A DNA stretch of 64,000 bases. Source: Christiangramia sabulilitoris. GTDB taxonomy: Bacteria > Bacteroidota > Bacteroidia > Flavobacteriales > Flavobacteriaceae. The stretch lies in the NCBI RefSeq assembly GCF_007050985.1, contig NZ_VHSF01000001.1, forward strand, positions 372,001 to 436,000, given 5' to 3'. Each line of letters begins with the position of its first letter. Position 1 is the stretch's first letter. Made by a program: the position numbers and the translations under genes. Below, piece after piece: positions 25,131 to 40,990 of this stretch. A model generated the notes under the pieces. The model did not search any database. It was not told where the DNA came from and saw nothing but the letters and a program-made list of their open reading frames with translations.

Positions 25131-25823
25131 TTATCTCACATTAAAGTTTACATACCTGTTGTTACCATTATCGACTATTGTTAAGTTAACCGTCCTCTCT
25201 TCAGTAGCATCATCATTACATGTTTCAGTTTGTGTCTCTTCATCAAACGTAGTAGTCTCGTTGCTTAGCTTTACATTTGAAGCCTTAAAAGTATAAGCAT
25301 TCTCAAATGGATCTCTTACAAAATATGATTTTCCAAAAGGTCCCTCATCAACTTCCAAAAATCCTTTAAAACTCACATTTAATTTACCTTTGGGTTCTTC
25401 GTCGCAGAAATTCCCAAAACTTATGGGATTAGAAATATCAAACCAAAAGCTACTTACGTCATTCGAATTGAGGGTGATTGAACCAGTTCCATCTGGAAAA
25501 ATCTTTAAAGTTGGAACCTCATCATTCGAAATAAAAAATATAAAACCAGAACCAGTTCCGAATCCAAAGAAACCACTTCCACTATCCATAAAAATGATTC
25601 CTTTGCCATTATTCTCCCTAGCTTTATCTGAACCTATTTGTTGAAATGTTCTCATCATGTAATCCTGGAATTTTGCATCGCTAACAATCTCCTTTGCCCT
25701 TAAGGTTTTTAAAGAAGCTTCTTGAAGATCACTTACTGGTACAGATAACTGGTCTTCTTTGCTACAGCTTAAGAACAAGCTTATAACTATAATTGATAAT
25801 AAATAATTGATTAGATTCTTCAT
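25131..25823 (-). CDS. Lipoprotein of unknown function
   Basis: 230 residues. The lipoprotein signal MKNLINYLLSIIVISLFLSC has the lipidated Cys at 20, followed by SKEDQ. The mature part is beta-rich with a glycine/phenylalanine-rich hairpin FMDSGSGFFGFGTGSGF at ~79-95, and an acidic C-terminal portion (ETQTETCNDDATEE). I recognise no family. It is isolated, its 3' end faces rdgB, and its 5' end faces the helicase leader, so it is expressed alone. Confidence 0.75.
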   Translation of the reverse strand: MKNLINYLLSIIVISLFLSCSKEDQLSVPVSDLQEASLKTLRAKEIVSDAKFQDYMMRTFQQIGSDKARENNGKGIIFMDSGSGFFGFGTGSGFIFFISNDEVPTLKIFPDGTGSITLNSNDVSSFWFDISNPISFGNFCDEEPKGKLNVSFKGFLEVDEGPFGKSYFVRDPFENAYTFKASNVKLSNETTTFDEETQTETCNDDATEERTVNLTIVDNGNNRYVNFNVR

Positions 25824-26032
25824 AACTCTGAATTTTAGGTTGATAAAAATTAAACCAGAGCTTGAACAGGAATAGTAGTAGGGACTAATCTACTGTAAAG
25901 ATAGTACCTGAAATACTTTCGAGAAAAACGGGAAAACCCGTAATTATTCCCCAAAACACCTTTAAACAGTCTGATTTACAATGATTTACATCAATTAATC
26001 CTGATTTAATCATTTAATCGGAAATAAAAGTG

Positions 26033-26155
26033 TACATTTGCCGCTTGAAAAAATTCCTCAGGGTGAGGATGTGTTACTGGAAGTTTAGGTTTAAGTATGT
26101 CGATTCGCTTCTTATGTAACACCTACATATTATAATCGAATACTTACAAAAACGA
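26033..26155 (+). promoter_or_regulatory. Promoter -7 element and structured leader of the DEAD-box helicase gene
   Basis: TACATTTG (26033-26040) matches the -7 consensus; no good -33 is seen. The ~110-base leader holds a small hairpin CCTCA/TGAGG (26056-26068) and a stem GTGTTAC/GTAACAC (26071-26077 with 26116-26122). A 12-13-bp pairing of 26092-26105 with 26134-26146 has one bulged G. The last two stems interlock as in a pseudoknot and end 9 bases before ATG 26156. The region 25824-26032 shows nothing else. Confidence 0.6.
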
Positions 26156-27955
26156 ATGAACGCATTCCAAAAACTTGGACTTGACGCAGACTTGCTTAAG
26201 GCCATTGAAGACATGGGGTTTGAAACTCCAAGTGAAGTACAGGAAAAATCAATCCCAATTTTATTAGAACAGGAAACTGACCTTGTGTCATTAGCACAAA
26301 CCGGAACTGGTAAAACAGCTGCTTTTGGTTTTCCGCTAATTCAGAAAATTGATTCAAATTCTAAAAAAACACAGGCATTAATCCTATCACCTACCCGTGA
26401 ACTGTGTTTACAGATCACTAATGAACTTAAGAACTACTCGAAGTATAAAAAATCTTTAAACGTAGTGGCAGTTTATGGTGGAGCAAGTATTACAGATCAG
26501 GCAAGAGCCATCGAAAGAGGAGCTCAGATCATCGTAGCTACTCCAGGTAGAATGCAGGATATGATCCGCAGAAGAATGGCAAACATCTCCTCTATTGGAT
26601 ATTGTGTGCTGGATGAGGCTGATGAAATGCTGAATATGGGATTCTATGAGGATATTAAAAGTATCCTATCTCATACCCCACAGGAAAAGAAAACATGGTT
26701 ATTCTCTGCAACTATGCCAAAGGAGGTTGCAAAGATCGCCAAGAAGTTCATGACCAACCCGGTAGAAATTACAGTTGGTTCCAAAAACATGGGTACTTCT
26801 AACGTTTCTCACGAATGGTACCTGGTAAATCATCGTAACCGTTACGATGCATTAAAAAGACTGGCAGATGCTAACCCTGATATTTTCTCAGTGATCTTCT
26901 GTAGAACAAAAAGAGACACTCAAAAGGTAGCTGAAAAACTTATTGAAGACGGATATAATGCTGCGGCATTGCACGGTGATCTAAGTCAGAATCAACGTGA
27001 CCTGGTAATGAAGAGTTTCAGAAGCCGCCAGATCCAGATGCTGGTAGCAACAGATGTTGCTGCACGTGGAATTGATGTTGATGATATTACTCACGTAATC
27101 AACTACCAGTTACCAGACGAAATAGAAACCTACACTCACCGTAGTGGTAGAACAGGTAGAGCCGGTAAAAATGGAGTTTCTATGGTGATCATTTCAAAAA
27201 GTGAAGTTCGCAAGATCAGAACTATTGAAAAGATCATCCAGCAAAAATTCGAGGAGAAATCTATTCCAGACGGAAAAGAGATCTGTAAGACCCAGCTATT
27301 CCATTTAGCTAATGATATAAAGAAGACCGAGATCAATCATGATATTGATCCTTATCTTCCTGCAATTAATGAAGCCCTGGAAGATTTTACAAAAGAAGAA
27401 CTTATCAAAAAATTCTTCTCTGTAGAGTTCACCCGTTTCTTCAATTATTATGAGAAAGCTCCAGATCTTAGTTCAGAATCTGCCGGGGGAAGACCAGAAG
27501 TTTCTGAAGGTAATACCAGGTATTTCATCAACGTTGGATCTAAAGACGGTTACGACTGGAAAAGTTTAAAAGACTTCCTTACCGAGGAACTTAACCTGGA
27601 TAGGGATGACGTCTTCAAAGTAGACTGTAAAGCAAGTTTTTCTTTCTTTAATACAGATGAGAAGCATACAGATCTAATTTTGAAAACTTTTACTGAATAC
27701 AAACAAAACGGAAGATTTGTAAATGTTGAAGTTACCAAAGACCAGCAATCTGGGAGAGGTGGCGGAGGCCGAAAGAGAGAACGCAGCGGAGGCGGCGGAG
27801 GTGGACGAAGAAATTCGAAAAGCTTTGACGACAACAAAGGCGGTAAATTCAGCGGGAAAAGAAGATCTGAAAGAAGAGACGATAAAGGCCCGAGAAAAGG
27901 AAGCCGGAACAAGAATATCGAAAACTCCATCAAGAGAAGAAGATCTAAAGCTTAA
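26156..27955 (+). CDS. deaD: DEAD-box ATP-dependent RNA helicase, DeaD/CsdA type
   Basis: 599 residues. The Q motif region MNAFQKLGLDADLLKAIEDMGFETPSEVQ precedes motif I AQTGTGKTAA (~47-56), Ia PTREL, II VLDEADEML (~157), III SATMP and VI HRSGRTGRAG (~326). A DbpA-like RNA-binding domain follows (FINVGSKDGYDWKSLKDFL, ~460-535), then a disordered Gly/Arg/Lys-rich tail (~545-599; GRGGGGRKRERSGGGGGGRR). Such helicases assist ribosome assembly and mRNA turnover, especially in the cold. The tail probably increases RNA affinity. The gene has a long structured leader and a strong terminator. deaD is the closest symbol; paralogues cannot be excluded. Confidence 0.94.
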   Translation: MNAFQKLGLDADLLKAIEDMGFETPSEVQEKSIPILLEQETDLVSLAQTGTGKTAAFGFPLIQKIDSNSKKTQALILSPTRELCLQITNELKNYSKYKKSLNVVAVYGGASITDQARAIERGAQIIVATPGRMQDMIRRRMANISSIGYCVLDEADEMLNMGFYEDIKSILSHTPQEKKTWLFSATMPKEVAKIAKKFMTNPVEITVGSKNMGTSNVSHEWYLVNHRNRYDALKRLADANPDIFSVIFCRTKRDTQKVAEKLIEDGYNAAALHGDLSQNQRDLVMKSFRSRQIQMLVATDVAARGIDVDDITHVINYQLPDEIETYTHRSGRTGRAGKNGVSMVIISKSEVRKIRTIEKIIQQKFEEKSIPDGKEICKTQLFHLANDIKKTEINHDIDPYLPAINEALEDFTKEELIKKFFSVEFTRFFNYYEKAPDLSSESAGGRPEVSEGNTRYFINVGSKDGYDWKSLKDFLTEELNLDRDDVFKVDCKASFSFFNTDEKHTDLILKTFTEYKQNGRFVNVEVTKDQQSGRGGGGRKRERSGGGGGGRRNSKSFDDNKGGKFSGKRRSERRDDKGPRKGSRNKNIENSIKRRRSKA

Positions 27956-40685: not shown

Positions 40686-40726
40686 AATCTGCAGACCTTT
40701 ATCCCGAAAGTCACTCGATATTTGTT

Positions 40727-40978
40727 GAAATTCGGGCAGGTCTCCTGGCTCGCGTACTGCAATTCACCTTCCCATCTTAAAAAGACAGTGGTTTGAAGAA
40801 TTATTGCAGCCACCCAAAGGGCTAAGCTTACAGTTGCGGGAACAGCTCAGGTTTATGAAGTAAAAAATATGAAAATGGAATTACGAAATTGAAAATTCGC
40901 TCTTCTAAAATAGCATATTACACTTCCCCTGATTCCCTTTTAATCCACGCAGAATTGTCGGCGTTGAACCAAAATTTC
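40727..40978 (-). ncRNA. Cobalamin riboswitch upstream of btuB
   Basis: The minus strand carries the B12 box GAGCCAGGAGACCTGCC (complement of 40735-40751), the conserved CCGCAACTG segment (near 40831-40839), GGGTGGCTGC and GGGAAGGTG. The closing stem P1 can form from GAAATTTTGGTT at the 5' end (40967-40978) with GACC...AATTTC at the 3' end. The aptamer ends 41 bases before the btuB start. A downstream hairpin (40693-40743) reuses P1 bases and is the likely expression platform. No polyT tract follows, so control is probably translational. Confidence 0.95.
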
Positions 40979-40982
40979 GAGG

Positions 40983-40990
40983 CAAAATTA
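40983..40990 (-). promoter_or_regulatory. -7 element of the btuB riboswitch transcript
   Basis: TAATTTTG on the minus strand matches TAnnTTTG and puts transcription start just before the first P1 strand of the riboswitch. No convincing TTTG lies 19 bases upstream. Confidence 0.6.

Follow-up and report, generated by a model that had tools for sequence, protein, structure and literature searches.

A candidate pseudoknotted cis-regulatory leader of a DEAD-box RNA helicase gene in the Flavobacteriaceae

Within the window, the 64,000-nt stretch of the Christiangramia sabulilitoris genome analyzed here, a gene for a DEAD-box RNA helicase is preceded by a promoter-like box and a leader that can form several short stems (Table 1). 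The earlier assignment of the gene as an RNA helicase is borne out by its DEAD, Helicase_C and DbpA RNA-binding domains; of the 25 NCBIfam models shown for it, CshA comes nearest but all stay below their cut-offs, and residues 445-535 alone have no match among solved structures. On the minus strand, between an RdgB/HAM1-type gene and the helicase, positions 25131-25823 encode a 230-residue protein that begins like a lipoprotein and matches nothing in Pfam or NCBIfam at E 0.001. The window also holds a cobalamin riboswitch (Rfam RF00174, 91.9 bits) on the minus strand at 40718-40988. Across the whole window, no Rfam 15 family matches the leader at its gathering threshold, and at E values up to 5 the matches to window positions 25900-26300 and to the related leaders L032 and L036 all fall far below threshold.

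Table 1. Features of the helicase leader and gene, in window coordinates
Feature	Position	Strand	Remarks
Promoter-like box TACATTTG	26033..26040	+	Matches TAnnTTTG, the -7 box of flavobacterial sigma-A
Leader RNA, about 111 nt	26045..26155	+	5' end inferred; match to covariance model R1, E 2.5e-23
P0 hairpin	26055..26069	+	TCCTC 26055-26059 with GAGGA 26065-26069
P1 (stem 1), 5' strand GTGTTAC	26071..26077	+	Seven pairs; covariation and swap test
P1 (stem 1), 3' strand GTAACAC	26116..26122	+	Covariation and swap test
P2, 5' strand GGAAGT	26079..26084	+	Covariation and swap test
P2, 3' strand GCTTCT	26107..26112	+	Covariation and swap test
Stem 2 (pseudoknot stem), 5' strand TAAGTAT-g-TCGATT	26092..26105	+	Within the apical loop of P2
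Stem 2 (pseudoknot stem), 3' strand AATCGAATACTTA	26134..26146	+	Ends 9 nt 5' of the ATG
P3, 5' strand TATGTA	26113..26118	+	Overlaps the P1 3' strand at its first bases
P3, 3' strand TACATA	26124..26129	+	Swap windows, alignment A4, hairpin count
DEAD-box RNA helicase gene, 599 aa	26156..27955	+	DEAD, Helicase_C and DbpA RNA-binding domains; glycine-/arginine-rich tail

The earlier note had described two interlocked stems in this leader, and on rereading the sequence we find stem 1 (P1) with the seven pairs attributed to it. Stem 2 comprises 13 pairs, TAAGTAT (26092-26098) with ATACTTA (26140-26146) and TCGATT (26100-26105) with AATCGA (26134-26139). Its position and the bulged G26099 had been given correctly, but T26091 is unpaired, so that the 5' strand starts at 26092; the distance of 9 nt between the end of the stem and the start codon at 26156 is also as noted. 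The linkers are 14, 10 and 11 nt long, as measured before, but they are not empty, since the P2 stem can form there. A further hairpin, P0, precedes stem 1.

Taken as a single sequence, the leader makes a modest case for a pseudoknot. With unbulged stems only, the arrangement is not above chance, and this way of judging it was set aside: the same number of pairs occurs in 310 of 500 dinucleotide shuffles, and the weighted score is equalled by 131 of those 500 shuffles and by 88 of 400 random window segments. Once a single bulge is allowed, the score is equalled by none of 300 shuffles and by 3 of 300 random window segments. The question is decided by comparative evidence, from covariation and from a swap test among relatives, rather than by chance estimates on one sequence.

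Relatives of the leader fall into two subtypes, each represented by a covariance model from which stem 2 was left out: R1, made from 11 type A leaders including the window's own, and R2, made from 14 type B leaders. In its own genome the leader is the sole R1 match at E values up to 1. In a sample of 397 genomes from the family, R1 has 173 matches in 172 genomes and R2 has matches in 66; no genome is in both lists, which gives 238 of the 397 with type A or type B. This count is probably a lower bound because two divergent-looking forms (L316 in genome G074 and L331 in G079) were missed by both models, their genomes being in neither match list. Each genome has one match, except that G044 has two adjacent matches that make up one interrupted element (L334:1215-1620). 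There, an insertion of about 162 nt in the apical loop separates P2 from the 5' strand of stem 2; P0, P1, P2 and stem 2 all look still pairable, a natural loop-insertion variant, and we found no terminal inverted repeats in the insertion.

The element is tied to one gene. All 145 examined type A matches of the 173 (30 loci, 114 fetched sequences and the window's own, with the helicase aligned from its first methionine) lie directly 5' of the orthologous helicase gene, as do all 66 type B matches, and none of these 211 matches (145 from R1 and 66 from R2) precedes another gene. Among the 28 R1 matches outside the examined set, those in G039, G054, G078 and G101 were later seen to place the element before the helicase, and another makes up the remaining half of the interrupted G044 element. 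The leader has the properties of a cis-regulatory element, a fixed same-strand place 5' of one gene class and 3' of a promoter-like box recognized by sequence match.

The orthologous helicase also occurs without the element, for example at Flavobacterium, Salegentibacter and Zunongwangia loci, and the element is therefore dispensable. Among the best 80 helicase orthologs of the matches listed, we recognize it by eye in 30 (14 type A and 16 type B); run against the same 80 loci, R1 recovers 14 with E values below 1e-6 and misses every type B leader. A set of 29 more or repeated helicase loci includes six in which no element is seen by eye (L305, L306, L309, L319, L322 and L332). On a tree of 81 helicases, made by a quick method that leaves 29 of the 78 inner branches weak, the states type A, type B and none require 4 changes, compared with 28.3 when labels are shuffled. 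The window's helicase groups with those of Salegentibacter and Zunongwangia (support 87), both of which are without the element, and because these are its closest helicases, loss in those genera or regain near the window's lineage is possible. By eye, the window leader closely resembles that of L015, though its tree neighbors L008 and L009 (Salegentibacter and Zunongwangia) have no such leader.

Outside the family, no convincing R1 match was found in samples of the class (247 genomes) and the order (196 genomes), both of which contain family members and were searched with stricter filters than the family itself. Matches in the class sample were the leader's own genome and, weakly, L299 (E 0.007); those in the order sample were five genomes of the family, among them the leader's own, and, again weakly, L303 (E 0.007). 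The helicase is absent from both weakly matching loci. In the Sphingobacteriaceae ortholog leaders L055, L064, L068 and L071, a short GGC...GCC hairpin follows the promoter box and the element is absent by eye. Several type A leaders (L031, L034, L036, L039, L040 and L042) have an extra variable hairpin between the promoter box and P0, for example AAATCC/GGATTT or AAACTC/GAGTTT by eye, that is absent from the window leader.

The counts of leaders that follow carry two qualifications. One species can be represented more than once, as the identical-looking pairs L044/L218 and L025/L220 suggest, and the leaders in the raw counts are therefore not independent of each other. In addition, 4 of the 241 parsed leaders (L200, L216, L231 and L294) were mis-parsed and excluded from the swap, promoter and motif counts; some of these have divergent stems, so that their exclusion may flatter the result slightly, and five other odd parses were kept.

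Of 237 leaders, 227 have a TAnnTTTG box upstream of the element, where 7.8 would be expected from shuffles. In Flavobacterium psychrophilum, TAnnTTTG is the -7 box, found at -12 to -5, and the median 5' UTR is 24 nt (PMC9723704). The box TACATTTG of the window matches this pattern, so that transcription would be expected to start near 26045 and to include the whole element. A start at about this position is likely on the strength of the sequence, and it would make the helicase leader long relative to the F. psychrophilum median. A start 3' of 26105, which the earlier note had named as evidence against the pseudoknot, is made unlikely by the recurrence of this box.

Compensatory changes, on whose presence the proposal had been staked, are found both in alignments and in the swap test. 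In the type A alignment (A4, 71 selected leaders), 92.4% of cells are paired, compared with 37.5-43.1% when partners are slid by 1-3 columns; both sides change in 20 of 30 pairs, and none of 500 shuffles reaches any of five measures. Since A4 and its type B counterpart (A5, 55 selected leaders) were fitted to P0, P1 and P2, the counts for those stems lean to the model, whereas stem 2 and P3 lie outside the models. The paired fractions in A4 are 98.6% for P0 (both-side changes in 3 of 5 pairs), 98.6% for P1 (5 of 7) and 96.1% for P2 (2 of 5), and in L211, L223 and L316 the P0 stem sequence is replaced. Stem 2 alone is paired in 85.2% of cells (slid, 25.6-44.1%), and its covariation score of 0.145 is reached by none of 500 shuffles (slid, 0.012-0.062). 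Its both-side changes, in 10 of 13 pairs and equalled by 3 of 500 shuffles, are not distinctive alone because sliding can give as many as 11 pairs and 29 changed cells, compared with the observed 10 and 29.

For type B, 88.8% of cells in A5 are paired, compared with 28.3-53.6% when slid. Stem 2 alone reaches 81.3% (slid, 30.0-54.4%), and its covariation score is matched in 2 of 500 shuffles. The both-side changes seen there, in 7 pairs and 17 cells, do not stand out from those of slid versions. The inner half of the stem is 95.2% paired and nearly constant, and the outer half is 67.3% paired and variable.

The swap test is free of alignment and pairs each apical loop either with its own tail or with the tails of other species, using representatives less than 80% alike (31 type A and 23 type B). 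For type A, stem 2 has a pairing energy of -11.58 kcal/mol with its own tail vs -8.37 with others (N 31, z -7.9, 0 of 2000 permutations), and for type B, -10.48 vs -6.80 kcal/mol (N 23, z -7.4, 0 of 2000 permutations). The same preference is seen for P1 (z -6.2 in type A and -5.2 in type B) and for P2 (z -2.3 and -2.9), and the controls, 12 segment pairs divided equally between the types, stay within z -1.0 to +1.9. Replaced stems can also be recognized by eye: in L331, TTATATTTT pairs with AAAATATAA and P1 is TTGTTA/TAACAA, and in L227, P1 is GTACT/AGTAC and stem 2 is GTTTATTTGT/ACAAATAAAC. Overall, comparison among relatives shows that P0 is followed by a hairpin of P1 and P2, and that the apical loop of this hairpin forms stem 2 with the tail immediately 5' of the start codon. 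The interlocked order proposed in the earlier note is that of an H-type (hairpin-loop) pseudoknot in which P1/P2 and stem 2 both covary, and the comparative data strongly support it as a real structure.

A further hairpin, P3, is likely but not proven. It can form in 123 of 156 type A leaders and in 15 of the 31 divergent representatives, and in 48 of 81 type B leaders, mostly with four pairs. The first swap window gave z -1.9 for type A and -1.3 for type B. Adjusted windows, which were chosen after the pattern had been seen, gave z -1.0 to -7.9 for type A (best, -4.1 with N 31 and -7.9 with N 74) and a weak +0.7 to -3.3 for type B. P3 is paired in 74.0% of its A4 cells. Both-side changes affect 15 cells, a count that none of 500 shuffles attains, but as many pairs with such changes arise in 203 of 500 shuffles, and pairing still amounts to 64.9% at a slide of +3 and 58.0% at -3. 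Because P3 and P1 have bases in common, they would be alternatives or parts of a more complex joint fold.

Energy minimization yields a nested fold in which stem 2 encloses P3, and the nested fold of 25990-26200 has a z of -2.68. At 37 C the combination of P0, P1 and P2 (-17.8 kcal/mol) and that of P0, stem 2 and P3 (-19.3 kcal/mol) are nearly equal. The nested fold also hinted that the apical loop or the tail might pair with the first codons; this candidate was dropped, as no within-species preference is seen (z -1.4 to +2.4).

Parts of the leader are conserved as sequence. GTGTT is present in nearly all leaders of both subtypes (type A, 151 of 156; type B, 77 of 81) and is steadier than pairing alone requires, and this constancy in both subtypes suggests recognition beyond pairing. 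P0 of type A is nearly constant (CCTCAG[AG]G[TA]GAGG in 142 of 156), and that sequence occurs in none of the 81 type B leaders. Among 12 patterns tried, we found no single-stranded motif common to both subtypes besides the P1 strands. The RNA-binding domain of the helicase YxiN has helix 92 of 23S rRNA as its target (PMC3695512), and mimicry of this helix by the leader was considered and rejected. When seven leaders are compared with helices 89-93 of L336, their scores are equalled by 113 to 189 of 200 shuffles, and when they are compared with a wider 23S stretch of L336, by 50 to 164 of 200.

We lean toward reading the element as a pseudoknotted cis-regulatory leader of a single DEAD-box helicase gene that gates translation, most plausibly through feedback by the helicase. 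Stem 2 would keep the ribosome off the start region, so that helicase translation would depend on how often the leader opens, and the helicase itself is the most likely sensed factor. When free helicase is ample, its binding or remodeling of the leader would keep translation low; when it is drawn to other structured RNA, as with new ribosomes or in the cold, translation would rise. We favor negative feedback as the direction of control, though by little. Gating is supported by the covariation of P0, P1, P2 and stem 2 in both of the divergent subtypes and the swap-test results for the last three, by the link to one gene, the closeness of stem 2 to the ATG and the recurrent promoter box, and by an RNA-binding domain in the product, the constancy of GTGTT and the precedents of crhR, RNase E and RNase J. 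Against it stand the orthologs without the element, the outer half of stem 2 in type B, with its 67% pairing and both-side changes not above slid controls, and the presence of stem 2 in both alternative folds, neither of which is an obvious 'on' state. The lack of rRNA mimicry in the seven leaders compared counts against the helicase as ligand.

Since P3 shares bases with P1, the second nested fold, stem 2 around P3, may be a partner state of the first. The leader could then be a bistable sensor in which the P1/P2 pseudoknot and stem 2 with P3 are exclusive, selected folds that the helicase interconverts, setting its own level; we regard this more elaborate reading as possible but on balance doubtful. 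Temperature alone might instead move the leader between the same two folds with no protein sensor, a cold-responsive cis switch after the manner of the E. coli cspA leader that we consider unlikely. Helicases of this kind are often cold-induced, the two base-sharing folds are nearly equal in energy and P3 covaries in type A, but the signal for P3 in type B is weak, and 33 of the 156 type A leaders fall short of the pairing criterion used for it. The cold-sensitive switch suggested in the earlier note is likewise not favored by nearest-neighbor energies (computed without pseudoknot loops), in which the two nested folds keep their order at 4, 15, 30 and 37 C.

Another trans-acting factor, such as a ribosomal protein, an sRNA or an RNA chaperone, could bind the conserved GTGTT/P0 region and control the helicase. 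The near-constant P0 sequence of type A and the presence of GTGTT in both types suggest recognition of some kind, but type B is without that P0 sequence and the element accompanies no other gene in the 211 matches examined, which makes this explanation improbable. An effect on message stability only, with the 5' hairpin and pseudoknot shielding the RNA from decay and no switch involved, would suit the place of P0 near the predicted 5' end and the extra hairpins upstream of P0 in several type A leaders. Simple hairpins would do for that purpose, however, and the retention of stem 2 beside the ATG in both subtypes would be left unexplained, so we give this possibility little weight. A small-molecule riboswitch is less credible still, and we think it very improbable: the compact pseudoknotted form near a start codon is riboswitch-like, but metabolite riboswitches would be looked for ahead of several genes of one pathway and with a conserved ligand pocket, whereas here one gene alone follows the element in all 211 examined matches, Rfam holds no match and, among the 12 patterns tried, no single-stranded motif other than the P1 strands is shared by the subtypes.

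Structured leaders of genes for RNA enzymes are a known kind of element, and the gating proposed here can be set beside several of them. The deaD/csdA gene of Escherichia coli has a very long leader and is autoregulated; it too encodes a DEAD-box helicase, but the leader described here, at about 111 nt, is compact and pseudoknotted. In the cold-shock leader of E. coli cspA, alternative folds, one of them pseudoknotted, govern translation; alternative folds with one pseudoknot are predicted here as well, but the energies of ours predict no thermal flip between the two nested folds. Feedback control has been described for crhR of Synechocystis (PMC3485376) and for RNase E and the RNase J of Helicobacter pylori (PMC5874925), RNA enzymes whose own 5' region or message responds to the activity of the enzyme, and the feedback that we propose would be analogous. 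Unlike the present leader, these systems belong to other phyla, and the accounts consulted mention no pseudoknot in the passages concerned. A 2010 survey of 104 candidate RNAs (PMC2864571) includes the Bacteroidota motifs Flavo-1, 6S-flavo and Bacteroid-trp, which resemble the leader in being structured RNAs of the same phylum found by comparison; no Rfam model matches the leader, however, and the word 'helicase' is absent from the main text of the survey. Among the hits listed from the open-licence PMC literature, for such a leader as well as for helicase autoregulation and cold switches, there is no description of this leader or of its architecture.

The leader would represent a new regulatory RNA family that is dedicated to an RNA helicase and occurs in 238 of the 397 genomes sampled from one bacterial family. 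As a compact system, it would allow one to ask how cells sense their capacity for RNA unwinding, and the two subtypes, the losses and the loop insertion would be natural, ready-made controls. If the bistable reading is true, the leader would measure the cell's spare RNA-unwinding capacity.
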